Virus record (IMG/VR): IMGVR_UViG_3300050821_009903
Location: 1-20,715 of that record
Reading direction: 5' to 3' (one strand)
DNA from: a virus
DNA: 20,715 nucleotides
Shown: piece by piece, positions 4,031 to 20,617 of the stretch
Layout of the letters: every line of letters begins with the position of its first letter
How positions within the stretch are numbered: the stretch's first letter is position 1
Program-made: the position numbers and the translations under genes
The notes under the pieces: model-generated
Told to the model about the DNA's origin: nothing
Databases searched by the model: none
What the model saw: the letters and a program-made list of their open reading frames with translations, nothing else

Positions 4031-6193
4031 ATGAAGAATCTTCTCAAGGTGCTTGTGTGCCTTTGTCTCAGCGTGCCAGTTTTCGGCCAGATGGTAACCG
4101 TCTCAGGGTCGAATCTAACCGACAGCTCCGGCAACGCCGTCAGCAACGCCACCATTACGTTCACTCCGACTCTCCTCAACGGGCAGCCCATCGGCTTCCG
4201 CAAGGGCACGTCGGGTGGACAGGCGACAGCGACTCCTGTCTCGGCAACGGTGACCGCTGGTGCCTTCTCCCTCACCGTGGCCGACACTGCACTGACCTCT
4301 CCAACAAACGTCTGCTACAACGTGACGGTGACGGACAACGTTACCGGCAACAACCTGCTCGGCAAAGGCTACGGATGTGTTCAGCCCGCCAGCACGGGCA
4401 TCAGTGCAGCGTCGTGGTGCGCGTTATCTGGTGCGGTGACAGTATGCAACTTTGACACCTACACGCCGAACCTTTCCGCACAGGTGGCAACAGAAGCTGG
4501 CCCCGTTGGCCCTACAGGTCCCCCGCTGCAATTCCTCGGCACATGGAGCGCCACCACCACCTACCAGTTTGGCGCAACGATCAGCTTCAACAATGTCGTA
4601 TACATCTCTCTCATCAACGCGAACACCGGCAACAACCCAAGCTCCAGTCCCGCTGACTGGGCGATCCTGTACGCCTCACCGATCACGGGCATAATCAACG
4701 TCTCAAGCTTTGGTGGTGTGGACATCTGCGCGAAGATCAACGCCGCTGCGCTCGCCAACCCTGGGACGATCCTCGATGCTCGGCAGTTCGATGGAATCCA
4801 GCCGTGCGCCAGCAATCCCTTCGCGTCGACCACAGGTGACATCGTCGTGTTGCTGAACAACGTCACGATCCAGACTAAGGTGCCCTGGGTGACCAACTCT
4901 GCGTTCAATGCGCTCATCTTCGGTGCCGGTCGCGGCTCGAACGGACGCGGAACTACCATCCAGGCTGGCACTGGATTCCCGGCAACATGCGACGGCCTCA
5001 GCGTTGGATGCCCGATCCTGCGCTTGGGGAACGGTACAGCGCCGACCTTCGGCAACCGCATCGAGAACCTGACGCTTGATTGCAACGGCCTGGCCGGCTG
5101 TATCGGACTGTACTCGAACGAAATACAGGAACAGAGCGGTGCGCGTCACTTCCAGGTAATCAACTTTCCCGTGTACGGAATCTTCATGGATGGCACCGGC
5201 GGTCCCGGCATCGGTGCTGAGAACTATGTCCTGGAGGACGGTGAGCTATACGCTGCGAACGCGGGAACAAGCTCAACAATCGGAATCTTGATTACGAGCA
5301 ATCTGGCCTCCTCGAATGGCCCACGTCTTCTTTCCAACCTAACTGCTAATGGGGCTGCGGGTCACATCATCCTATCCAGCTACATGCTCCAAGGCGTCAC
5401 CTCTGGCGTTCTCCAGGGCCTGAATGCAGAGAGTGCGGTCACCGGATACACCATCGGCCCGAACGGATCGCAAGGTTCGCAGGCGCTTTCCCTTGATAGC
5501 GTTCAGTGCAATGTGGTCAGCACCACGTGCGTATGGCTGCAGTCAGCGGTCAACGACATATCCATCCGGAACATTCTCAACGGCGGTCTGGCGACTCCTA
5601 CCACCCTCAAAGATGACTCCACCGGCACCAACCTGACCGACTTCACGGTCGCGCTCTACGTTATAGGTAGCGGCGGAACATTCCGCATCAACTCCGGTGG
5701 TATCGGGTCACAGTTGTTCAAGGGCTTAAGCGTCATCAATAAGGCTGATGCGGTTCTGAATGTCACGCTCGGCAGCGGTGTCACCGCCTCACAGGGGCAG
5801 ACGATCATCTTCGCCGACCGTAACACCAACAAGTGGAATATCGCCAACACCAACGCCAACGCATTTCAAATCTTCGACTATGCGAACAATTTCACTCGTC
5901 TTGCGTTTGACGCTGCTGGGAACGTATCGCTGAACTCGTTCGGAGCTCAAGCTGTTCTGATTAACGACAATCCGGGCAGCGGTTCAGGCGGGCTGCTGAT
6001 ATGCACGGGTGGCGCAACTCCTGCTTGCCCGACCTCTATCGGCAGCTCGGGTGTTACGACCATCCAACTTGTGCCCGGTTCCATCACGACTCCTACTGGA
6101 TCATGCACCGGTGTCACCAACGGCACGCTGGCGCTTGGCCAGGACGGGCACGCCGCATCGTGCGTATCCGGCACTTGGACCTCGCGCTGGTAG
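4031..6193 (+). CDS. Secreted tailspike/fibre-like protein with carbohydrate-binding module and beta-helix
   Basis: A 720-residue protein that probably binds or cuts a surface polysaccharide. Its layout is a Sec signal peptide (residues 1-20, MKNLLKVLVCLCLSVPVFGQ); an Ig-like module of about 100 residues (TVSGSNLTDSSGNAV, NGQPIGFRKG, VADTALTSP); a short collagen-like GPVGPTGPP; a CBM5/12-like module at about 168-213 (GTW, TTTYQFGATISFNN, VYIS, PADWAIL); and a region from about 220 (SSFGGVDICAKINAAALANP) typical of pectate-lyase-type right-handed beta-helices. The C-terminus is rich in Gly, Thr and Ser. The ATG at 4031 has CGGAG upstream. The signal peptide is odd for a virion protein, and the place between tape measure and tip genes is unusual for a spike. 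Alternatively it is a secreted lysogenic-conversion protein that travels with the tail operon. Confidence 0.7.
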   Translation: MKNLLKVLVCLCLSVPVFGQMVTVSGSNLTDSSGNAVSNATITFTPTLLNGQPIGFRKGTSGGQATATPVSATVTAGAFSLTVADTALTSPTNVCYNVTVTDNVTGNNLLGKGYGCVQPASTGISAASWCALSGAVTVCNFDTYTPNLSAQVATEAGPVGPTGPPLQFLGTWSATTTYQFGATISFNNVVYISLINANTGNNPSSSPADWAILYASPITGIINVSSFGGVDICAKINAAALANPGTILDARQFDGIQPCASNPFASTTGDIVVLLNNVTIQTKVPWVTNSAFNALIFGAGRGSNGRGTTIQAGTGFPATCDGLSVGCPILRLGNGTAPTFGNRIENLTLDCNGLAGCIGLYSNEIQEQSGARHFQVINFPVYGIFMDGTGGPGIGAENYVLEDGELYAANAGTSSTIGILITSNLASSNGPRLLSNLTANGAAGHIILSSYMLQGVTSGVLQGLNAESAVTGYTIGPNGSQGSQALSLDSVQCNVVSTTCVWLQSAVNDISIRNILNGGLATPTTLKDDSTGTNLTDFTVALYVIGSGGTFRINSGGIGSQLFKGLSVINKADAVLNVTLGSGVTASQGQTIIFADRNTNKWNIANTNANAFQIFDYANNFTRLAFDAAGNVSLNSFGAQAVLINDNPGSGSGGLLICTGGATPACPTSIGSSGVTTIQLVPGSITTPTGSCTGVTNGTLALGQDGHAASCVSGTWTSRW

Positions 6194-6243
6194 CTGACAC
6201 GTAACAATCACCCCTCCCGCCCCAACACCGAAAAGAGCACCAC

Positions 6244-6891
6244 TTGATCAACACAATCACATTGGACGGCAATGCCGTCTCCGTTGTCACGCTCCCTCAT
6301 GACATCGGCTCGGCGGCATCGGTGGAGTTCTCGTTCTCGGACGCGGTGGCGATTGTCTCGTCCCCATTCACGGGTCAGACGCAGGCGCAGCAGTGGCCGG
6401 GTGCGGATATGTGGACGGGGACAGTGACGCTCCCTCCGCTGACCCAGAACCAGGCTGATGATTGGATCTCGTTTCTTATGGAATGCCGGGGCATGGCCAA
6501 CGCCTTTCAAATCGGCGACCCCATGAAGCGTATGCCGCGGGGTGCTGTGTCAGGTGTGCCGGTGGTCGACGGCTCAGTGACGGTGGTGGCAGGTGGTCAG
6601 ACGCTATTAACGCGCGGCTGGACAGCTTCGAGGTTCCGTCTGCTTGTTCCAGGCGACTACCTCCAGGTGGGCTTCCGCCTGCATCGCGTCCTGGACGTCG
6701 TGAACTCGGATGCGAACGGCAAGGCAGCTATCAGCATCTGGCCATCGCTTCGTGAGGTGCCGACGGATGGCGAAGCGATCGTCCTCAACAATCCTGTCGG
6801 GTTATTCAGACTCGCAGCCAACAAGCGCACATGGTCCTCGGATTACACCGCCCTCACCCGGCTCTCGTTTCAGGTCATGGAGTACCGATAG
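6244..6891 (+). CDS. Phage minor tail (tail tip) protein
   Basis: A 215-residue soluble protein in the position of lambda gpM/gpL, between the tape measure region and the tip peptidase. It is likely a tail-tip component linking the shaft to the hub. The sequence is beta-rich, with Trp-containing segments (QWPGADMWTGTVTLPPL, WISFLMECRGMANAFQIGDP) and a second half with 'FRLLVPGDYLQVGFRLHRVL' and 'IWPSLREVPTDGEAIVLNNP', a pattern seen in siphovirus distal-tail proteins. The start chosen is TTG at 6244 with a purine-rich AAAAGAG about 7 nt upstream; no ATG is available at this end. Its TAG stop (6889-6891) is followed at once by the next ATG, so the two are cotranslated. No enzyme motif is visible. 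Confidence 0.65.
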   Translation: MINTITLDGNAVSVVTLPHDIGSAASVEFSFSDAVAIVSSPFTGQTQAQQWPGADMWTGTVTLPPLTQNQADDWISFLMECRGMANAFQIGDPMKRMPRGAVSGVPVVDGSVTVVAGGQTLLTRGWTASRFRLLVPGDYLQVGFRLHRVLDVVNSDANGKAAISIWPSLREVPTDGEAIVLNNPVGLFRLAANKRTWSSDYTALTRLSFQVMEYR

Positions 6892-7446
6892 ATGAGAAAC
6901 CTTGACCCAAACATGGCGGCGGCGCTGTCCTCCGGCCTGATCCGACCTGTCTTCCTCGCAGACCTGACATTCAGATCGGCGACACGGCATGTGTGGACTG
7001 GCGTAGGGAACATCGTCTTCAACGGCAACACGTATGAAGGAATCGGTTCATTCGGAAGCCTCGGCGCGATCAATGAAGGTGTTGAAGTCAAGGCCGACAC
7101 GACCACCATCAGTCTCAGCGGAATCGACCCTGTATTGCTCGGTGAGAGTCTGACGGACATTCAGCAAGGCGCACCGGCTGTCGTCTATTTCGGTTTGATG
7201 TCCAACACCGGAACGTTTCTGGGCTCGCCGTACAAGTCTTTCGCCGGTATGGTCGATGTCCCTTCCGAGAGCATTGGCGGCGACACCATCACGATCTCAC
7301 TGTCGCTTGAGAACTCGTTTGTGGACGGGCAACGCGCGAGCAATCAGCGATACACATCCGCAGACCAGAGAATCAAGTTCCCCGACGACACAGGCTTTCA
7401 ATTCGTGGAATCGCTCAACGATATCGATGTTCGGTGGGGGAGCTAA
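6892..7446 (+). CDS. Phage minor tail protein (tail hub associated)
   Basis: A 184-residue protein of a type common just upstream of the NlpC-like and gpJ-like genes in siphoviruses and gene transfer agents. Visible signs are the start 'MRNLDPNMAAALSSGLIRPV', a beta-rich middle (LADLTF, HVWTGVGNIVFNGNTYEGIG), 'VKADTTTISLSGID', and the end 'RYTSADQRIKFPDDTGFQFV' followed by 'DIDVRWG', which is very characteristic of this family. I recognise the pattern but cannot assign a Pfam number with certainty. It is probably a structural part of the distal tail to which the gpJ-like trimer attaches. It begins directly after the previous stop codon and ends 2 nt before the next start, so it is a tightly packed operon member. 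Confidence 0.7.
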   Translation: MRNLDPNMAAALSSGLIRPVFLADLTFRSATRHVWTGVGNIVFNGNTYEGIGSFGSLGAINEGVEVKADTTTISLSGIDPVLLGESLTDIQQGAPAVVYFGLMSNTGTFLGSPYKSFAGMVDVPSESIGGDTITISLSLENSFVDGQRASNQRYTSADQRIKFPDDTGFQFVESLNDIDVRWGS

Positions 7447-7448
7447 CC

Positions 7449-7883
7449 ATGAGCTTGAATAAAGGCCGGTCTACCGTGCCGTTCACCACTTTCCTGAAGC
7501 AGGCTAAGTCAACGCCTTTCAAATGGGGTAGCAATGATTGCTGCTTATTCGCCGCCAACGCAGTTATGGCGATCACGGGAGTGGATCTCGCTGACGACTT
7601 CAGGGGAAAGTACACCGATGAGGCATCCGCCTTCGCGCTGATCAAGACCGTAACCGGTGGCACTACCGTAGCTGACGCAGCGGCGCATTGCGCGACGAAG
7701 CACGGCCTCACCGAGTACGCGCACCCGCTCATGGCGAAGCGCGGCGACCTTGTCGTCATTCAGAACGGATCGAACCTCATTGCCGGCGTTGTTCATTTGA
7801 ACGGTCGTCAGGTGGTGTCTGTCAACGATCAGGGAATCGTCCGTCTGCCAATCACAGCAATCACCCGTAGTTGGAGTATCTAA
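7449..7883 (+). CDS. NlpC/P60-like tail tip protein (DUF6950 type)
   Basis: A 144-residue protein resembling the DUF6950 branch of NlpC/P60-like cysteine peptidases, in the position of lambda gpK. Such proteins sit at the tail tip and may cut peptidoglycan during DNA entry or act structurally. The key segment is FKWGSNDCCLFAANAVMAITG, with Cys31 (after Asn-Asp) as the likely nucleophile. KRGDLVVIQNG follows, and then a His in AGVVHLNGRQVV as a candidate second catalytic residue. The ATG at 7449 is preferred because GGGGAG lies 6-7 nt upstream; an in-frame GTG at 7434 is less likely. The stop overlaps the next ATG by 1 nt (TAATG). Confidence 0.75.
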   Translation: MSLNKGRSTVPFTTFLKQAKSTPFKWGSNDCCLFAANAVMAITGVDLADDFRGKYTDEASAFALIKTVTGGTTVADAAAHCATKHGLTEYAHPLMAKRGDLVVIQNGSNLIAGVVHLNGRQVVSVNDQGIVRLPITAITRSWSI

Positions 7884-10705
7884 TGTCACGCGCAGTCACA
7901 GGAGCAGTCGAACTCGCCGGAGCCGCAATCGGTCTAGCGGCGATCACCTTCGCAACTGGTGGTCTTGGTGCGCTCGTCAACACTCCGCTATTCATGAACC
8001 TTGTAGGCGGGTTGGCGCTGACCGGCGCCACGATGGAAGCTGGTGCAATCGCGTCTGCTCTCACTGCGAACCGCGGGATGAACATCACCACCCGTCAGGC
8101 CGCTGCGAATCGCCAGGTCATCTACGGGCAGCAGCGCGTCGGCGGCGTCGAGGTCTATCTTTCAACGACCGGCAGCGAGTTGGACCAATACAACTACATC
8201 GTCTTGCTGGCCGGACATATTTGTCACTCGATTCAAGCCCTCTATCTGGACGGTCGTGAAGTTTTCTGGCTGGGCAGTGGACCTGGTTACTCGGTGCGCA
8301 ACGGCATCGGCTTCGGAGGCGTGGCCGACAACAACAGCCACACCGGACCTTCGGGACAGCAATACAATTTCGGCGGCACCGGACATTCCGGAATCTTCGC
8401 CGAGGCTCGCTACGGCGATCAGGTCAGCGGGGACTTCTTCACGTCGCTACAGGCGAACGATCCTAACTGGGGACCCACAGCAAACGGCAATCCTTATGTA
8501 GGTGGCTGCACGGTCATCTATTTAAAAGTTGAATTCAACACCAACTTGTTTCCTACCCCGCCTGAAATCAGAATCACCGTAAACGGCAAGGATACGATCT
8601 TCGATCCTCGAACCGGGACAACTGGCTTCACTTCGAATTGGGCTTTGATCGCCGCCGATGTGATAACCGATCCCGTCTTCGGGATGGGGGACAACTCCGT
8701 CAATCAGGCTCAGTTGATCGCCGCGGCAAACGTATGCGACGAGCAGGTCCCCTTGGCTGCTCTACCGGGGCAGACCGAATCACGCTATTCAACGAACTAC
8801 CACTTCGACACCTCCGTCGCGCCCATCGACGCGCTTCAAGCAATGATGCCGGGAGCCGCAGGCCGTATCAGCCGAGTAGGTGGTGAGTGGTTCCTGTGGC
8901 CAGCGTTCTGGCAGGGACCGTCTTTCACGTTCGATCAGAATGCTCTTACCGCACCAGCTCAGTGGTCTGGATTCAGGAGCCGCCGCAATCTATTCAACCG
9001 CGTGGGGGGAACCTACATCGCGCCTAACTTCCCCTTCAACGTGGCTGGTAATGCGTACGACGGCAACGGGTTCGACTCTGATGGTCAGGCGCAGAATAAC
9101 TTCGAGCTGGAATGGACTCCAACCAACTATCCGCAGTACGCGTCCGACACTCTGCACGGATTCGCGTCTGACCAGTTTCTAAACGAAGACGGAATTCCAC
9201 TTTATAAGGAGGTCGGCTACCAGACTGTTATCTCCGTGACTCAGGCGCAACGCTGCAGCAAAATCGCTCTTCTGCGCAATCGGCAGCAGGGATCGGGAAC
9301 TTTCGAGATGGCTATGGCTGCGTATCAGATGCAGCCGACGGATGTAATGGAGTTCACATTCCCGGAACAGGGATGGAGTGAGAAGACGCTCGAAGTGAAC
9401 GGAATCAACTTTCGTGTCGTCCAGGATGATAGTGGAGCGCCGAGCGTTCGTTGTTCCGTGCCCGTGATCGAGACGGACGAATCGGTCTACGACTGGAATC
9501 CGACAACAGAGGAATTAACGATCCTCGATGTCCCCGCGAGCCCAAACCAAGTCCCCCGTACCCCCGCTCCTCCGACTGACCTGATCCTGACATCGGGTGC
9601 ATCGACTGCGGTCGTCAATGCAGACGGCACCGTAACTCCGCGTATCGAGGTTCAGTGGAGCACACCCCAGGACGTACTCACGACACAGATTCAAATCCAG
9701 TATCAGCAGGTGGGTGCGGCGGTCTGGCTGTCGGCTCCGTCCGTAGATGTCAGCCTCAACCTCGGCTTCATCACCGGCGTGATCGCTGGTCAGGCGTATA
9801 ACGTCCGCATCAGGTCAGCGCGAGCTAACGGTGCGGTGTCTGCCTTCGAAGAGATCGATGGCTTCACGGTCAGCCTCACGCTGTCTGTGCAAGGGATCGT
9901 TGCACTCGATCCGGGCTCTTTGATCGCCAATGCATTCACCGATGGAACTGCGTCGATTGAGGTGTTTCCGTTCATCGCACGGGTCGGTCAGGTCAGCGTA
10001 CCTATCCTGCCCGCTGGTCCGTTCACGCTATTCGGACTAGCGCAGGGGACTCTCTACTTCGTTTACTATGTCGACCCGAACTTCACCGGCGGGGCCATCA
10101 CACCGATCGCCACGACGAACACATCCGACTTCCTCAACAAGCCGGGGTTCTTCCTGATCGACTCAATCGTCACTCCGTCTCTGTCATCCGGCGGCGGGAC
10201 CAAGCTGAGCCCAAGCGCGTTTGCGGATATGGGTAGTCGCACCACAAGTACTCCGGCGGCAGCATTCGACGGAAACCTCGCGACATCAGCGGTAGTGTCT
10301 GGATCATTCTTCGTGATTCCCGACAACTCCGGCTTAACCGGCATCGGCGGCAACCAGGGCACACTGTCCGGCACCGGCGATCCGGGGACAACCGCATCCT
10401 CGTTTGGGGCATGCACATGGTCCGGCTTCCCCAGCTTCGTCACGACAGCGCCGATGAACCTGAACGTGGTTGCTGCGGTGTCTGTTGTTCCGGCGGGTAA
10501 CGCTTCGATCACGCCGACTATACCCGGTGTGTCGACTAGCCCGACGTCATTCACCACCACGGCTGCAAGTACGACGTATACGTTTGCCATCCCCGTCGGC
10601 ACTCAGATCAGCGGTGTCGCCGTGGCGGTTAGCGCTAATCCAGCTACTACCCCCGGCAGCTCTAGCTCCGTCGCCGTCTCCGTCACCGAAATCTTCATCG
10701 CGTAA
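7883..10705 (+). CDS. gpJ-like central tail tip / host specificity protein
   Basis: A 940-residue tail tip protein equivalent to lambda gpJ, expected to form the trimeric hub and central fibre that contacts the receptor. The N-terminal 60 residues are hydrophobic ([33 protein letters not shown]). Residues about 70-600 carry the Phage-tail_3-type hub: [20 protein letters not shown], a long Gly/Asn-rich loop, '[18 protein letters not shown]', '[14 protein letters not shown]' and '[14 protein letters not shown]'. From about residue 555 ([12 protein letters not shown]) fibronectin type III-like domains follow. The last 200 residues, Gly/Ser/Thr-rich with '[15 protein letters not shown]', are the likely variable receptor-facing end. 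The start ATG overlaps the upstream stop. Length is somewhat below lambda gpJ (1132 residues). Confidence 0.85.
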
Positions 10706-10721
10706 CTCCCAAAGGCACAAA

Positions 10722-12203
10722 ATGAATAAGCTCCTCAAGGCAGTCGCTGCCCTCGTATGCCTCGCGGCGGGCATCGCACATGCGCAGCTCACCACGATCA
10801 CCGCCTCCAAGATCAGCATGGGAGGCGTGCCCATCGCCTCCGGTGTTGTCACGTTTGCCCCGGTCGACGTAAATGGTCAGCCGATATCTTTCGTCCAGGG
10901 CGGAGGCGGCCTCAACTCGCCTAAGGCGTTTGCATGCCGAATCACTGCCGGAGCCATCACTGGCGTGTGTCAGGTTCCGGATGCTGCGCTCACCGCTCAG
11001 GCCAACATCCTGTACGCCATCCAGATCACCGGCAACGGCCAGTCATTCGTGCTGGGACCGGTCCCCAACATCACGGGTCCCACGTGGGCGCTCGATGATT
11101 ACGCGCAGCCTGCTACGACCACAAATGTGGAGCCGATCCAGGTCGCGTACGGCACCGCTGCACCGCCGAGCCCATGCGCTACTCCGTCGTTTTACATTCA
11201 GAACCTTGACGGCGGTCTCCTCTACATGTGCGTAGCCGGTGTTCCTGTGCTCGTTACTGGCAACGGTACTGGCACTGGTGGAGTCGGCCCACAAGGTCCT
11301 GCCGGTCCAACTGGGCCTCAAGGTCCGATTGGGCTTACTGGAGCGACAGGTCCGCAGGGTCCTATCGGCTTGACTGGCGCGACCGGGCCTCAAGGCCCGA
11401 TCGGTCTGACAGGTGCCACAGGACCCACCGGTGCAACTGGCCCGCAAGGGGCAACTGGCTCGACTGGTCCCCAGGGCAGCCAGGGTGTAGCTGGCGCGAC
11501 GGGATCGACCGGACCAACGGGCGCTACTGGTCCAGCGGGAGCTGCTGCAACAATCGCCGTCGGTACGGTCACGGGACTATCCGCCGGTGCGACTCCGACA
11601 GTTACAAATTCGGGATCATCGTCCGCAGCGACATTCAACTTCGGTATCCCCGCCGGAGGCACAGGAGCAACAGGTCCCACGGGGCCAACTGGTGCCACCG
11701 GTCCTTCGGGTAGCACAGGCGCGACCGGGCCAACGGGCGCGGCCGGCGCTGCGGCAACCATAGCGGTCGGCACAGTCACGGCGTTGGCGCCAGGTGCGAC
11801 ACCGACGGTGTCGAACACAGGTTCAAGCTCGGCTGCTGTATTTGCATTCGGCATTCCCTCGGCGGGCACTCCCACATTCAGCACGCTGACGGACAGTTCT
11901 TCGGTGACTTGGGCTATCGCCTCCGCCATCGTAGCCAACTCGACGTTGACGCTTGCGCACACGACCGCAACGCGCTCGATCAATCTCACCGGTCTGGTCA
12001 ACGGCGGTACTTACGTCGTGGTCCTGAAGCAAGACTCGACGGGTGGGGCAGCGGCAACTCTAGGCACCGGATGTACGTGGTTCCAAGGTGGCTCGGCGGG
12101 ATTCACTGCCTCAACGACACTCGCCTTGACCACCACCGCATCCGCAATCAACATCCTTGCCTTCATCTATGACGGCACCAACTGCTACGCAAATCTGCGT
12201 TAA
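10722..12203 (+). CDS. Secreted collagen-like tail fibre protein
   Basis: A 493-residue fibre-like protein. Residues 1-22 are a clear Sec signal peptide with an AHA-Q cleavage site. The next module (about 23-115) resembles that of the protein at 4031-6193: both have NGQPI(S/G)F, a TAGA segment and (V)xDxALT. Residues 189-275 and 312-344 are collagen-like G-X-Y tracts, each followed by a segment of the type [10 protein letters not shown]...GATPTV...GSSSAA...FGIP, which recurs in many phage fibres. The C-terminal 110 residues look like a beta-sandwich head. The ATG at 10722 (AAAGG upstream) gives the signal peptide; the frame is open further upstream, but that part overlaps the gpJ-like gene and is not coding-like. 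It may be a long trimeric fibre. Confidence 0.75.
11286..11753 (+). repeat. Collagen-type G-X-Y coding repeats with two interspersed copies of a fibre module
   Basis: Within the fibre gene, 29 consecutive G-X-Y triplets (11286-11546) and 11 more (11655-11753) are encoded. The first tract holds three copies of a 12-residue unit, [12 protein letters not shown] or close to it. Synonymous codons differ between copies, so the repeat is kept at protein level rather than being a recent DNA duplication. The segment between the tracts and the one after the second are diverged copies of the same ~38-residue module. Confidence 0.85.
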
Positions 12204-13332: not shown

Positions 13333-13794
13333 ATGCAGATATCGACGGCTGGATTGAATCTCATCAAGACAGCAGAGGGATTCAAGCCGCACCTGTATAA
13401 CTGTCCAGCAAATGACTGTTCCATCGGATACGGTCATCTCATCCACAAGGGTCCGGTGTGTGGCGCAGCTTCAGAGCTGCCGTATGTATCCGGCATCGAT
13501 GAAGCTCACGCAAGCGCCCTGTTACTCGGTGACGTTGCTTACGCCGAACATGCTGTCTCTCATCTGGTGACTGTCTCTCTGACACAAGGACAGTTCGACG
13601 CTCTGGTGTCCTTCACGTACAACGAAGGCGCAGGTAGGCTGCAGTCTTCGACGTTGCTGAAGGTACTGAACGCGGGAGACTATGCCGGCGCTGCCGGTCA
13701 GTTCGGCCTGTGGGTTTACGGTGGCGGGGTGAAGCTGCCTGGGCTGATGACGCGACGGGCGGCGGAGACTGCGCTGTTCGAGGACGAGAGCTAG
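13333..13794 (+). CDS. Phage endolysin, T4-type lysozyme (GH24)
   Basis: A 153-residue GH24 lysozyme that should cut the MurNAc-GlcNAc bond of peptidoglycan at the end of infection. The catalytic region is TAEGFKPHLYNCPANDCSIG followed by YGH. Glu15 is the general acid. The position of the T4 Asp20 is Cys24, and that of Thr26 is Ser30 (E-x8-C-x5-S). The Asp-to-Cys change is common in the 'YxCPAGxxTIGYGH' branch of this family, while the Thr-to-Ser change is less usual. Further family marks are 'LTQGQFDALVSFTYNEGAG', 'STLLKVLNAGDY' and 'LPGLMTRRAAETALF'. There is no signal peptide or SAR segment, so release depends on the upstream membrane protein. Length is typical for the family. Confidence 0.93.
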   Translation: MQISTAGLNLIKTAEGFKPHLYNCPANDCSIGYGHLIHKGPVCGAASELPYVSGIDEAHASALLLGDVAYAEHAVSHLVTVSLTQGQFDALVSFTYNEGAGRLQSSTLLKVLNAGDYAGAAGQFGLWVYGGGVKLPGLMTRRAAETALFEDES

Positions 13795-14334: not shown

Positions 14335-15030
14335 ATGAACCCCATCAGAACGACTAAAAGCACCCGTCTGCGCCGACTGGAGATGTATCGAGAAGATCTT
14401 GACGAGCTCGTCGCTTTGTTTCGTGACAACTGTAAACTTGTAACGGTTTCCGATGACAAGTTCCAATACGATTCGCTGGGCGAGATGCAAAAACGAACCG
14501 GGAATAAGGTCAAGCACTTAGATATTCGTGGGGTGGAACCGGCGGTTCACTTCACCTTGAACCGGGAGGAAGCAACTCAGACAGGCTTCCCTCCAACTCA
14601 AGGAAAAACCACGTTCAATGAAATTAGGACGGAGGAGATAGACGACAAGGCCGACGCGCTCTACTACCGCATAAGAGATTTTCTAGAGACAAAGCAGCGA
14701 CCGAATTACTCCAGACCTGGGTTACTCTTTGTTTCCATCCTTGCTTTTGCCTTCTCAATTGTGTGGTTCGTCGCAGCCAACGCTATAGGTGCTCCTGGCT
14801 TTTCTCGCACTCAAGGTGGGATCGACGCCTCTCTGTTCGTGCTTTCCTTCGTATTGTTCTTTTTCTCTGCCTCACTGAACAACCTCATCTATCTCACCAC
14901 TAGGGCAGAGTCACCGTCTTTCTGGCAGAGAAACCAAGACGACATACTGAGCAAAGGCATCGTCGCTCTCTCAAGCACTTTGATGGGGGCGATTCTAGGA
15001 TTCATAATCGGCCGTTTATCCAAGCATTGA
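14335..15030 (+). CDS. Accessory membrane protein of unknown function (three transmembrane segments)
   Basis: A 231-residue protein I do not recognise. The first 125 residues are charged and soluble, with a helical start (STRLRRLEMYREDLDELVAL) and a possible beta region (VKHLDIRGVEPAVHFTLN). Three hydrophobic segments follow at about 130-150 (LLFVSILAFAFSIVWFVAA), 166-187 (SLFVLSFVLFFFSASLNNLI) and 208-226 (IVALSSTLMGAILGFIIG). It stands alone, with its own strong terminator 30 bp downstream, and is divergent from the Rap1a-like gene. Weak promoter-like hexamers (TTCGAC at 14297, TACACT at 14318) lie just upstream. Base composition looks lower in GC than the tail genes. Its place among phage cargo suggests superinfection exclusion or another membrane-level role, but the sequence does not show this. 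Confidence 0.7.
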   Translation: MNPIRTTKSTRLRRLEMYREDLDELVALFRDNCKLVTVSDDKFQYDSLGEMQKRTGNKVKHLDIRGVEPAVHFTLNREEATQTGFPPTQGKTTFNEIRTEEIDDKADALYYRIRDFLETKQRPNYSRPGLLFVSILAFAFSIVWFVAANAIGAPGFSRTQGGIDASLFVLSFVLFFFSASLNNLIYLTTRAESPSFWQRNQDDILSKGIVALSSTLMGAILGFIIGRLSKH

Positions 15031-16862: not shown

Positions 16863-17321
16863 ATGGCCAAACGTAAACAAACCGCCGAGCCCGAGCTATC
16901 GCCTATGCCGAGGGTGGGCGACAAGGTGAAGCCAGGCCGCTCTGAGATGGTCTACGAGATCCTCCATGTGTATGAGGGAGGCGACGAGGTGGATCTACAC
17001 GTCCCCGGCATAAACCTCCAGCGTTTCCGCGTGAGGACCGACAGCCTCACCTTTGTCGAGCGCAAGCCGCAGCCCAAGACCTCCAACCCTTTCACCACTC
17101 CCGAGCCTGAGATAGACACTGCCGAAGTGATGGAGCGGATAGCCACGGTCCAGCAAGAGAGTCTGAAGCAGTTGGACGACAACATAGACATTCTGAAGGC
17201 ATACCTGAAGACGCAGGGTGCACCTAAAGCCGCGATTTCTACGCTTGAAGGGCTGACGGTCGAGCAGCACGTGATCTGGAAGAAGGCCATCAAAAAGATC
17301 GAGGAATTGCTGGAGGAGTAA
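16863..17321 (+). CDS. Hypothetical protein coupled to the Ntn-hydrolase-like gene
   Basis: A 152-residue soluble protein with no family I recognise. It has a basic N-terminal tail (MAKRKQTAEPELSPMPR), a small beta-rich part (about 15-67: VGDKVKPGRSEMVYEILHVY, VDLHVPGINLQRFRVRTDSL) that could be an SH3-like barrel, a proline-rich linker, and a helical C-terminal half (85-152) with coiled-coil character (VMERIATVQQESLKQLDDNI; AIKKIEELLEE). The stop TAA is followed directly by the ATG of the next gene, so the pair is translationally coupled. A -10-like TACGCT ends 9 nt before the ATG, leaving little room for a leader. It may regulate or accompany the partner, but there is no direct evidence. 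Confidence 0.65.
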   Translation: MAKRKQTAEPELSPMPRVGDKVKPGRSEMVYEILHVYEGGDEVDLHVPGINLQRFRVRTDSLTFVERKPQPKTSNPFTTPEPEIDTAEVMERIATVQQESLKQLDDNIDILKAYLKTQGAPKAAISTLEGLTVEQHVIWKKAIKKIEELLEE

Positions 17322-18086
17322 ATGCGGATTACCAACGTTGCATTCTTTGTGCTTGTTCTGACCTCGGCCGAGGGATCTAGTACTTCCATTTACTCTCGAT
17401 ATAAGACTCCAGCTATCTATGTCGGTGCGGACACGCTCGGATCATCCGGGACAGGTTCGGATGCCACCGCGTGCAAGATGTTTGCGAACGACCAATATGT
17501 TGTAGCGTTCTCTGGTGAAATTGGAGCGCGCCCATTCCTCGACCCGCAAGGTAAACGGCGGACTATAACAGAAGGGACGTATGAGATGGGCATTCTTCTT
17601 GGCGCAGCACGAACGCCTGGACAGATACTTGAAGTCGTTACGTGGATCGTGATGAATATTCAAAAAGCATTGCTTCCGGCCTTAGCGAAACGCTATATGG
17701 TCACGACTGCTTCTTTCTACTGGTTTGAATCTGGCAAGCCACGAAACATTGTGATTGACTTCGAATCGGATGTCATCGGGGATAAGATTCAATTTCACCA
17801 CGACATAGTGAGAAACCAACTCCTCGTGGACGGCGATATTAGTTCGCCGCCCCGCGACTTTCACAAAGTCTTGGATCAGCCGGAACTGCTTCAGACCGCT
17901 AAAGTCATCGACGACCCTAAAGATCAATTGAATTTCATACTCGGCAAAGAGACTGACCTCAACAATCGCCAGGACGTCGGGCCTCCGTTTACGATCTACA
18001 AACTTACCCCTGGGGGCGGAGAATGGGCGCAAGATGTAGGTGAAATATGCGGCGCGAGCAATACTTTCAATTCTCATTCGAAATGA
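17322..18086 (+). CDS. Exported proteasome-like Ntn-hydrolase homologue
   Basis: A 254-residue protein with a hydrophobic N-terminus (MRITNVAFFVLVLTSAEGSS) followed by TSIYSRYKTPAIYVGADTLG. If cut before Thr21, the new N-terminal Thr lies 16 residues before Asp37, exactly the T1-D17 spacing of HslV and proteasome beta subunits. Lys52 (ACKM) falls at position 32, next to the expected Lys33, and FSGEIG (Gly65, position 45) matches the conserved glycine after the oxyanion strand. The rest (about 90-250) is alpha/beta and not diagnostic. This suggests a secreted Ntn-hydrolase, perhaps a peptidase or amidase, made with the upstream 152-residue protein (start directly after its stop). The length exceeds HslV (about 175). 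No HslU or other ATPase is nearby. A catalytically dead homologue is possible. Confidence 0.62.
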   Translation: MRITNVAFFVLVLTSAEGSSTSIYSRYKTPAIYVGADTLGSSGTGSDATACKMFANDQYVVAFSGEIGARPFLDPQGKRRTITEGTYEMGILLGAARTPGQILEVVTWIVMNIQKALLPALAKRYMVTTASFYWFESGKPRNIVIDFESDVIGDKIQFHHDIVRNQLLVDGDISSPPRDFHKVLDQPELLQTAKVIDDPKDQLNFILGKETDLNNRQDVGPPFTIYKLTPGGGEWAQDVGEICGASNTFNSHSK

Positions 18087-18128: not shown

Positions 18129-18929
18129 ATGTGCGGTCGCTACTACAGTCTCTTCGATAAGCAGCAGGTTGCCGAGCACTTTCATGTGCGGCACACCGCC
18201 GATAACGTCGGCATCATCGCACCAAACTACAACGTGGCACCTGGTGACCCCCAGCCTGTCATTCGTCGGAGCCGTGAGACGGGAAAGCGCGAATTAATAA
18301 TGATGCGTTGGGGCATCGTGCCTTGGTTTGCCAAGAGCGAAGACGAGTTCAAAGCTCTCTCGACCATCAACGCCAAGAGCGACCGACTCACAGACAGCAG
18401 GATGTGGCGCGAACCATTCGCGAAGCGTCGCTGCCTTGTTCCCGCAAGCGGCCTCTATGAGTGGCCTAAGCCTGGACATGTCATCTCACCCACTTACGAG
18501 CCAGAGGAGCCTGCCGCCGAGGCCTTCTTCGGAGACCTCTTCGGTATGCCGCCGCCGGCAAAGAAGACGAAGGCAGCCAAGCCCGTCAAGCGCGTCTTCG
18601 CGATCACCACCGTCGAGCCTGGACCGTTCGCCTTCGCCGGCATCTGGGACGCATGGAAACGGCCGGACGGCAGCTATCTCGAAACCTTTGCGCTGGTCAC
18701 CACAGAACCCAACGAACTCGTCGCGCAGATTCATGATCGTCTTGCGCTCATCCTTCACCCGAGGGACTATGACCGATGGCTTGGAATAGATGACAAAGGC
18801 GGCGATCCCCGGCCTCCGCTTGATCTGCTACACCCCTATGACGCCAGCAAGATGAAGATGACTCCCGCCAACCCTGCAGTTGGGAACTGGCGAAACAACG
18901 GCCCAGAGATGCTGGACGGGCCGCAATGA
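18129..18929 (+). CDS. SOS response-associated peptidase family protein (SRAP; YedK/HMCES)
   Basis: A 266-residue SRAP protein. These proteins use Cys2 to form a thiazolidine DNA-protein crosslink with abasic sites in single-stranded DNA, shielding them during replication. Cys2 must follow the initiator Met, which fixes the start at 18129 (MCGRYY). Other motifs are NYNVAPG (33-39), RWGIVPW (60-66), INAKSDR (80-86, Asn81), RRCLVPASGLYEW (100-112, Glu111 catalytic), AFAGIWDAW (168-176) and HDRLALIL (202-209, His202). Between Glu111 and the FAIT strand there is an extra segment of about 40 residues, acidic then Lys/Pro-rich, which explains the length above the E. coli YedK (222 residues). SRAP genes are common in phages and beside DNA repair genes. 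It ends 63 bp before the TIR gene. No LexA-type box is obvious. Confidence 0.93.
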   Translation: MCGRYYSLFDKQQVAEHFHVRHTADNVGIIAPNYNVAPGDPQPVIRRSRETGKRELIMMRWGIVPWFAKSEDEFKALSTINAKSDRLTDSRMWREPFAKRRCLVPASGLYEWPKPGHVISPTYEPEEPAAEAFFGDLFGMPPPAKKTKAAKPVKRVFAITTVEPGPFAFAGIWDAWKRPDGSYLETFALVTTEPNELVAQIHDRLALILHPRDYDRWLGIDDKGGDPRPPLDLLHPYDASKMKMTPANPAVGNWRNNGPEMLDGPQ

Positions 18930-18980
18930 TCGTCCAACCGCATAAATGTGCGATTGCTGCACCCAGAGGAACTATTGGGA

Positions 18981-18986
18981 TACAGT
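18981..18986 (+). promoter_or_regulatory. Candidate -10 box (TACAGT) for a leaderless TIR transcript
   Basis: TACAGT lies 6 nt before the ATG at 18993, the same distance as the TACAAT box of the gene at 15201. No ribosome binding site fits at a normal distance. A good -35 box is not visible: TTGCTG at 18954 gives a 21-bp spacer. The call is therefore weak. Confidence 0.25.
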
Positions 18987-18992
18987 GTCTGC

Positions 18993-19829
18993 ATGAACGT
19001 ATTCCTGAGCTGGTCCGGTTCAAAGAGCGAAGCTATAGCGGAGATTCTAAAGAAGTATTTGCCCAGCATCATCAATCAAGTGAAACCGTGGCTGTCCAGT
19101 CAACATATAGACGCTGGTTCTAGATGGAGCGCTGAAATTGCCAAGAACCTCGAGCAATCTAATGTCGGCATTTTATGCGTTACGGCAGACAACCAGACCG
19201 CACCCTGGATTCTGTTCGAGGCGGGCGCTATATCGAAGCTAACCACCGTCGGCTTAGCTATCGTAGTTCGTATCGATCTAAAAGCGTCGGAGGTACTCCC
19301 TCCCTTGAGCCAGTTCCAAAGCATCAGTCTGGAACGAGAAGACATCTGGAAAATGATCACAACGATCAACAAGGCAGGATCGACTTTAGTACCCGAAACG
19401 ATCTTAGAAACGACATTCGACGCCTTGTGGGACCGGATAAACTCCGAGATGGAAGGAGCACTCAGCGCACACGCTACCAAAGCACCCGCAAAGCGTTCGG
19501 ACAAGGAAATGATTGAAGAAGTGCTGGAGTTGGTACGTCGCCAGGATGTCGCCTTTCAACTTCTCGATTCCCGTCTGGAAATAATCGATCTGCGCCTCGA
19601 ACATAGGGAGACATGGAAGGGTCTGCCTATAACTTCGGCATCTGATTACAAAAACTTGTACACGCTTTCAAATATGGCACTTTCGAAACCGGGCTCAATT
19701 GCGGACCTGATCAGACCTCTGGCGAACGTGAACTCCATCTATTCCGGGTTAATGGATACTGTTTCCAAAGATATAACTGACGCCCCTCCGATTAGTGATG
19801 ATGGTACGAACCACGACAAGAAAGAGTGA
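18993..19829 (+). CDS. TIR-domain protein, probable NAD-targeting phage defence effector
   Basis: A 278-residue protein. Residues 1-140 form a TIR-like domain: MNVFLSWSGSKSEAIAEILK (strand A and helix A), 'WLSSQHIDAGSRWSAEIAKN' (BB-loop area), VGILCVTADN (strand C), then PWILFEAGAISK with Glu76 in the position of the catalytic glutamate of NAD-cleaving TIRs. Later 'LSQFQSISLEREDIWKMITT' is typical of this bacterial TIR branch. Residues 155-278 are helical with coiled-coil character (MIEEVLELVRRQDVAFQLLD, EIIDLRLEHRE) and could oligomerise or sense a trigger. The ATG at 18993 is preferred to an in-frame GTG at 18948, because the TIR fold begins with MNVFLSW. In phage cargo regions such genes commonly protect the lysogen from other phages. 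No Thoeris ThsA, CBASS cyclase or Argonaute gene is next to it. Confidence 0.85.
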   Translation: MNVFLSWSGSKSEAIAEILKKYLPSIINQVKPWLSSQHIDAGSRWSAEIAKNLEQSNVGILCVTADNQTAPWILFEAGAISKLTTVGLAIVVRIDLKASEVLPPLSQFQSISLEREDIWKMITTINKAGSTLVPETILETTFDALWDRINSEMEGALSAHATKAPAKRSDKEMIEEVLELVRRQDVAFQLLDSRLEIIDLRLEHRETWKGLPITSASDYKNLYTLSNMALSKPGSIADLIRPLANVNSIYSGLMDTVSKDITDAPPISDDGTNHDKKE

Positions 19830-20109: not shown

Positions 20110-20185
20110 ACAACAAATGCTCGTCGCAAGAGCACGCATTCGTACCGCGATTTTACACTCGAACCCGGAACTCGATTTGGTTGCG

Positions 20186-20446
20186 GCATCTACTTATGCG
20201 TGGAAATCTTGGGGTCGGCTGCAACTACTTATGCGTGCAAACGTGCCGGGATCGGCTCGTACTTCGGAAACGATCCTGTCGCGACTCAAAATCAACATAA
20301 CAAAGAGCAAAGAACGACCCTGACGGAATTGTCAGGGTCTTTTCACATTGGATGCGATATCTACTTATGCGTGGAAATGTGGCGGTCGCTGCAACTACTT
20401 ATGCGTGGAAATGCAGTTCTCGCTGCATCTACTTATGCGTGGAAAT
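20186..20446 (+). repeat. Direct-repeat array, period about 34 bp, five clear copies
   Basis: The word CTACTTATGCGTGGAAAT or a one-base variant occurs within copies at 20186-20207, 20221-20242 (GTGCAAAC variant), 20357-20378, 20391-20412 and 20425-20446. Starts are 35, 136 (4 x 34), 34 and 34 bp apart. The 12-13-bp linkers also share an ending close to TCGCTGCA. A degenerate copy (GCTCGTACTTCGGAAACG) lies at 20255-20272, in phase. A terminator sits in the gap. Short linkers and variable conservation argue against CRISPR. Likely protein-binding iterons, for example integrase or excisionase arm sites. Confidence 0.85.
20316..20344 (+). terminator. Rho-independent terminator inside the repeat array
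   Basis: GACCCTGAC (20316-20324) pairs perfectly with GTCAGGGTC (20331-20339) around a 6-nt loop (GGAATT), followed by TTTTC and preceded by an A-rich stretch. It lies between the second and third clear repeats. Together with the terminator at 20071 it would shield the chromosome from phage transcription, or the reverse. Confidence 0.78.
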
Positions 20447-20617
20447 GCTGGTCACGCTCAGTTTGCTTGGTGCATGTAGTGGTGCATGTTCCAGTTCGTA
20501 TTCACTGCATCTCTGTGCGACATAGAGCTACTTCGATGTGCTCCGTAAGTGATTGACTATGATACGGTTATGCTGCATTGTGCTACGTAGTGCAACATCC
20601 TGCGTTTATGCTGAAAA

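Follow-up and report, generated by a model that had tools for sequence, protein, structure and literature searches.

The DNA analysed here (the window, 20,715 bases) is a linear IMG/VR virus record that appears to comprise the tail-to-lysis end of a siphophage-like genome, followed by cargo genes. A tail protein matches phrog_5616 and relatives of the central tail fibre J. Because relatives of one tail protein (4031-6193) occur in Bryocella elongata and a Granulicella metagenome assembly, the virus very probably infects a member of the Acidobacteriota, class Terriglobia. The record is presumed to represent a prophage; no integrase was identified within the 20,715-nt window. The genes and codons discussed below are as follows:

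13333-13794, phage lysozyme (endolysin), assigned by domain match
16863..17321, + strand, 152-aa partner protein, predicted to form a small SH3/KOW/Tudor-like beta barrel with a helical tail, without a leader
17312..17318, + strand, GGAGGAG at the 3′ end of the partner ORF, a putative ribosome-binding site of the hydrolase ORF
17322..18086, + strand, 254-aa putative proteasome-like (T1-type) Ntn hydrolase, probably exported (ORF, 18-member family, and profile matches)
17322..17381, + strand, hydrophobic, signal-peptide-like leader (residues 1-20) 5′ of the nucleophile codon (maximal 12-residue hydropathy 2.27; cleavage-site scan)
17382..17384, + strand, Thr21 codon, predicted N-terminal nucleophile (Thr1), invariant in 18/18 members and aligned with residue 1 of mature chains
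17430..17432, + strand, Asp37 codon (Asp17 equivalent), invariant in 18/18, offset of 16 from Thr
17472..17474, + strand, Cys51 codon, proposed disulfide partner of Cys243, Cys in 16/18
17475..17477, + strand, Lys52 codon (Lys33 equivalent), invariant in 18/18
17514..17516, + strand, Gly65 codon of FSG (putative equivalent of the oxyanion-hole Gly47), Gly in 16/18
18048..18050, + strand, Cys243 codon in the C-terminal W...C motif
18129..18929, + strand, SRAP protein (context; Pfam SRAP, E 2e-55)
18948..19829, + strand, TIR-domain protein (context; Pfam TIR_2, E 3.4e-10; PADLOC TIR-TM, E 8.8e-58)

The TAA of the 152-aa ORF abuts the ATG of the 254-aa ORF, and the latter encodes Thr21, Asp37 (with 15 residues in between), Cys51-Lys52, and Phe63-Ser64-Gly65. 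Both ORFs, their direct stop-to-start abutment, and the Thr21/Asp37/Lys52/FSG (63-65) pattern had been described in an initial annotation of this DNA, and all of them were confirmed. The hydrolase had also been described as phage-carried, in agreement with the tail genes and endolysin of this virus record and with a further copy on a second phage contig (L056).

Several other features of the window were noted. The TIR gene (18948-19829) lies immediately 3′ of the SRAP gene and is a possible phage-borne defence effector. Five imperfect 41-nt direct repeats with the common core CTACTTATGCGTG and a spacing of 34-136 nt occur at 20177-20456. A 231-aa membrane protein encoded at 14335-15030 resembles, by eye, gp92 of phage Tunturi_4 (L095, 5160-5804), which adjoins the Tunturi_4 copy of the 152-aa partner and points to cargo common to acidobacterial phages.

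When used alone, the window hydrolase gave no match above curated cut-offs in scans of Pfam, NCBIfam, PHROG, and PDB, the best single-protein match being phrog_1040 ('peptidase HslV family', E 0.16), which fell on the right stretch. Single-sequence scans of viral contigs, genome contigs, phages, and plasmids returned no relative. One clear relative (L009, E 1.1e-4) was found among 399 genomes centred on a Terriglobia genome; it is 28% identical to the window hydrolase in an alignment that spans the whole protein from leader to C-terminus. The weaker matches of this first class search (L010-L027, E 0.002-0.1) were mostly unrelated proteins on reading, and one of them, L023 (G226), was recognised later through L030 as the C-terminus of a true relative. 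The family was then grown by iterated profile searches with two-, four-, fourteen-, and sixteen-row alignments, giving a final set of 18 intact members: the window copy, the copy on phage contig L056, and 16 copies from Acidobacteriota genomes. The phylum of the genome relatives is that of the search scope (Acidobacteriota), to which the sampling corresponds.

Relatives are 14-24% identical to the window hydrolase, and the gene is rare, with eight strong matches in 7 of 396 genomes. Judged by sequence, genes of this type are scattered through the chromosomes of Acidobacteria, and a virus of soil Acidobacteria appears to carry a distant cousin of the cutting subunit of the proteasome. The neighbours of the chromosomal relatives (Mrp/ApbC-like, acetyltransferase-like, TrkA-like, transporter-like, and others) have no common theme. 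Some individual copies deserve mention. Two members of 314 and 332 aa carry insertions (L039 and L040), and both are located 3′ of the same gene (resembling, by eye, the C-terminus of a ribonucleotide reductase) in two genomes, a conserved synteny that marks one chromosomal subtype. A frameshifted copy occurs at L088 (G987:C113, 1162-2115, - strand) in a genome that also has the intact L092. An ORF starting with VTLCIAAICDDGAKVIGISDRMIT (L050, 2604-3455, - strand) adjoins a leaderless family member and looks like a further type of Ntn hydrolase.

In the 18-member alignment, the only invariant columns are Thr21, Asp37, and Lys52, together with Met1. The Thr-Asp offset is 16 in all 18 members; the Thr-Lys offset is 30-36, except that a long loop extends it to 43 in one member. 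Glycine is found at position 65 (FSG motif) in 16 members of 18, including the window copy. It was reported that Thr1, Asp17, Lys33, and the oxyanion-hole Gly47 are positions common to proteasome-like proteins (PMC8665760). Homologues without Thr21, Asp37, or Lys52 would have spoken against the assignment; they were looked for, and all three residues are kept throughout the 18. Since these residues never change, the motif is not a chance pattern, and since the triad had been proposed before any relative was known, it was a real prediction that passed.

Profile comparisons point in the same direction. Pfam PF00227 (Proteasome) matches the N-terminus of 6 of 10 relatives at the same place, with E-values of 7e-4 to 0.04 that lie below the curated cut-off. 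Searched against PDB, the 18-row profile matched the beta-proteobacterial proteasome homologue (BPH) 5ovu best (E 1.9e-5), followed by proteasome beta (1.6e-4) and HslV (2e-4), and every one of the 60 matches listed is to a proteasome, HslV, or BPH chain. In those BPH, HslV, and proteasome chains that were deposited in mature form, residue 1 is aligned with the Thr column of the profile. In genomes, the family profile also retrieves genuine HslV (L044, 265 bits to TIGR03692) and genuine BPH (A11, which matches 5ovs at 1.7e-65), and hhalign gave values of 94.7% to HslV and 95.3% to BPH, compared with 0.2% to the alignment of the unrelated partner. The homology to PDB chains is significant over about the first 50-90 mature residues only, the C-terminal half being unmatched except that one proteasome beta chain shows a weak counterpart of IDIVRLTKEGAEW. 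For the window hydrolase, in which the alpha-beta-beta-alpha fold of T1 hydrolases would be expected, a single-sequence AF2 prediction gave a poor model (pLDDT 34.6). The invariant Thr/Asp/Lys and the matches to proteasome, HslV, and BPH bear out the earlier assignment to the T1-type (proteasome/HslV-like) Ntn hydrolases.

The closest known structures belong to BPH (PDB 5ovs, 5ovt, and 5ovu; PMC5777263), which has Thr1, Asp17, and Lys33 in common with the new family and apparently has no dedicated unfoldase (PMC8665760). However, BPH proteins are about 190 aa in length, start with Met-Thr or Met-Ser-Thr without a leader, and have neither the Cys pair nor the C-terminal VGPP...W...C region. Acidobacteriota also carry BPH genes, which are placed outside the new family in the tree. 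In a quick tree, the 18 members were placed on one side of a branch, with HslV and BPH on the other (SH-aLRT 99), which, together with the leader, rules out identity as BPH. The two phage copies (window and L056) were not grouped together, with long branches limiting any reading inside the family, and the branch of the window copy is among the longest, so this copy may have lost its activity even though the triad is kept.

HslV likewise has the T1 nucleophile and triad, and its genes are retrieved by the family profile. The window hydrolase itself has no match to the HslV models TIGR03692 and NF003964, and identity as HslV is ruled out by the best relative (17.9 bits versus a cut-off of 137), the separate tree branch, and the leader. 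No HslU ATPase was found beside the hydrolase in the window, where the flanking ORFs encode SRAP, TIR, and proteins of unknown type. The initial description as an HslV-like enzyme without an ATPase holds as to homology and to the absence of an HslU neighbour in the window, but the protein is not HslV.

Fuchs, Alva and Lupas (2021) described 22 further proteasome-like subfamilies, including the phage-carried PPH and AAH (PMC8665760). These resemble the new family in being divergent T1 homologues, some of them phage-spread, for which no AAA+ partner was found (PMC8665760), whereas PPH differs in its length of about 140 aa. According to PMC8665760, propeptides are confined to proteasome beta and HslV; signal peptides, periplasm, secretion, and Acidobacteria are not mentioned in its main text. 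The comparison with those clusters covers their description in the text, and one of them may contain some members of the present family. Current model libraries miss this branch, which was found here across Acidobacteriota.

The N-terminus was judged by hydropathy (a 12-residue stretch above 1.6 before Thr) and by the -3,-1 rule. A hydrophobic leader is present in 14 of the 18 members. Two cysteines, one beside the catalytic Lys and one near the C-terminus after a conserved Trp, are both found in 14/14 members with a leader and in 1/4 without (Fisher p 0.005, an indicative value as the members are related). The strict signal-peptidase pattern (Ala at -1, small residue at -3) occurs directly 5′ of Thr in 6 of the 14 leader members, which is the commonest position scanned, and a looser rule fits 10 of 14; the decayed G105 copy also has ASA|T. 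These leaders and the leader-linked cysteine pair suggest an exported form of the hydrolase, as had been proposed from the sequence alone. Export would not be universal, since four members have no leader, among them L037, which starts with Met-Thr like BPH. It had further been proposed that removal of the leader exactly exposes Thr21. This fits several relatives (AxA|T). The strict site of the window protein, however, is TSA|EGSSTSI and precedes Thr by four residues, the site at Thr itself being the looser GSS|T. As the most canonical site lies four residues early, trimming or self-cleavage may be needed in this copy, while signal peptidase could plausibly expose Thr21 on its own.

Homologues of the 152-aa partner were found in six loci: the window, L056 (69% identical), L031 and L055 (both in G105), L054 (G032), and gp91 of Tunturi_4, a cultured Tunturiibacter phage. 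Three of the six (window, L056, and L031) adjoin a hydrolase or its relic. The hydrolase is downstream of the partner in the window, a very divergent hydrolase lies upstream of it in L056 at a distance of 13 nt, and a frameshifted hydrolase relic is located 3′ of it in L031. No hydrolase was found beside the partner in L055, L054, or Tunturi_4, and no partner beside the chromosomal hydrolases inspected. Since the hydrolase is rare, adjacency in three of six loci greatly exceeds the chance expectation, and the pairing is real but optional. In an AF2 model of the partner based on two sequences, residues about 13-68 form a small barrel of five strands, which is accompanied by a helical tail (mean pLDDT 63.8, about 80 in the barrel). 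The Foldseek matches of this model (ribosomal L14e/KOW, Spt5, and Tudor) have E-values above 1e-3 and are too weak to indicate more than a small barrel. The partner, which has no leader, looks like a cytosolic, SH3/KOW-like protein. In L055 its neighbours are Ku and SRAP, and this company in G105 points to a nucleic-acid role and not to one in the envelope. In L090 (G105:C1, about 4680-12000), the partner gene lies amid SRAP, Ku, and genes that by eye resemble those for ImuA, ImuB, and a DnaE-type polymerase, with an integrase-like gene near this stretch.

The claim that the two genes form a coupled pair thus stands only in part: they abut in the window and are paired in three of six loci, but three loci have no hydrolase. 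Were the two genes a dedicated system, with the 152-aa protein as adaptor or regulator of the hydrolase, this would add to the main reading and not replace it; such a system is rather improbable. It would account for the abutment, for the hydrolase 13 nt upstream of the 69%-identical partner in L056, and for the relic 3′ of the G105 partner, but it would call for constant pairing, whereas L055, L054, Tunturi_4, and the inspected chromosomal hydrolases lack one or the other gene. Moreover, as the partner has no leader, the two products would end up in separate compartments. The adjacency is most simply explained as shared phage cargo.

The other alternatives concern the hydrolase itself. It may stay in the cytoplasm or membrane as a T1-type Ntn hydrolase, its N-terminus being a propeptide or anchor that is self-cleaved as in proteasome beta. 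Gly before Thr, which is typical of proteasome self-cleavage, occurs in five members (L033, L036, L045, L050, and L056), L037 starts with Met-Thr, and the N-terminus of L050 has only seven residues. Nevertheless, this explanation is unlikely in view of the 14 hydrophobic leaders, the small-x-Ala sites 5′ of Thr in 6 of 14, and a cysteine pair distributed (14/14 versus 1/4) as expected for an oxidising compartment. The window copy might instead be a proteasome-like gene in decay that has lost its function and is carried along on a phage fragment, which would agree with its very long branch and with the existence of decayed copies (the frameshifted relic 3′ of the G105 partner and the frameshifted L088 in G987). 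This is very unlikely, however, given 254 open codons and an intact leader, triad, oxyanion Gly, both Cys, and C-terminal VGPP...W motif. Finally, the Thr/Asp/Lys likeness might be a coincidence in an unrelated secreted protein, as searches with the window protein alone gave no significant library match; this is extremely improbable and is already contradicted by the profiles, with triad invariance, Pfam, the PDB profile, and hhalign in independent agreement. The protein is thus probably an exported, ATPase-free T1-type Ntn hydrolase that represents a new branch of the proteasome-like family.

For this enzyme, we infer export, processing, disulfide, catalysis, substrate, and benefit in the following scheme. 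Briefly, the leader, taken as a Sec-type signal, would direct Sec-dependent export and be removed by signal peptidase, with trimming or self-cleavage finishing the process if needed, so that Thr21 becomes free. Thr21 would then act as the nucleophile on the substrate, assisted by Lys52 and Asp37, with Gly65 contributing to the oxyanion hole. Outside the cytoplasm, the domain would be stabilised by a disulfide between Cys51 and Cys243. Because no ATP is available there and no ATPase gene adjoins, the likely targets would be accessible or unfolded peptide bonds in the envelope, cut without ATP. Alternatively, peptide bonds might be ligated or transferred, by analogy with connectase, a proteasome-like enzyme that works without an ATPase and provides a precedent for non-degradative chemistry (PMC8665760). 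Connectase is different in that it is methanogen-specific and has a helical insertion over the active site, and it is absent among the matches listed. The phage gene would be accessory, lysogenic cargo, located beside a small phage gene, SRAP, and a TIR-TM-like protein.

Enzymes of the proteasome type are seen as chambers in the cytosol, fed by ATPases, and to our knowledge none acts outside the cell interior. No exported proteasome homologue was found in the literature searched, of which the coverage was partial. The full picture is offered tentatively, at a little under an even chance: a separate proteasome branch that is ATP-free outside the cytoplasm, stabilised by a disulfide, and switched on at its Thr by signal peptidase during export, which has been kept in Acidobacteria and is carried by phages as a lysogeny-borne envelope-processing enzyme. 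If this is true, the proteasome fold would be at work in an ATP-free compartment, with its activation coupled to export instead of assembly. It would also add an exported member to the phage-borne proteasome homologues and supply profile models for proteins that the libraries miss.
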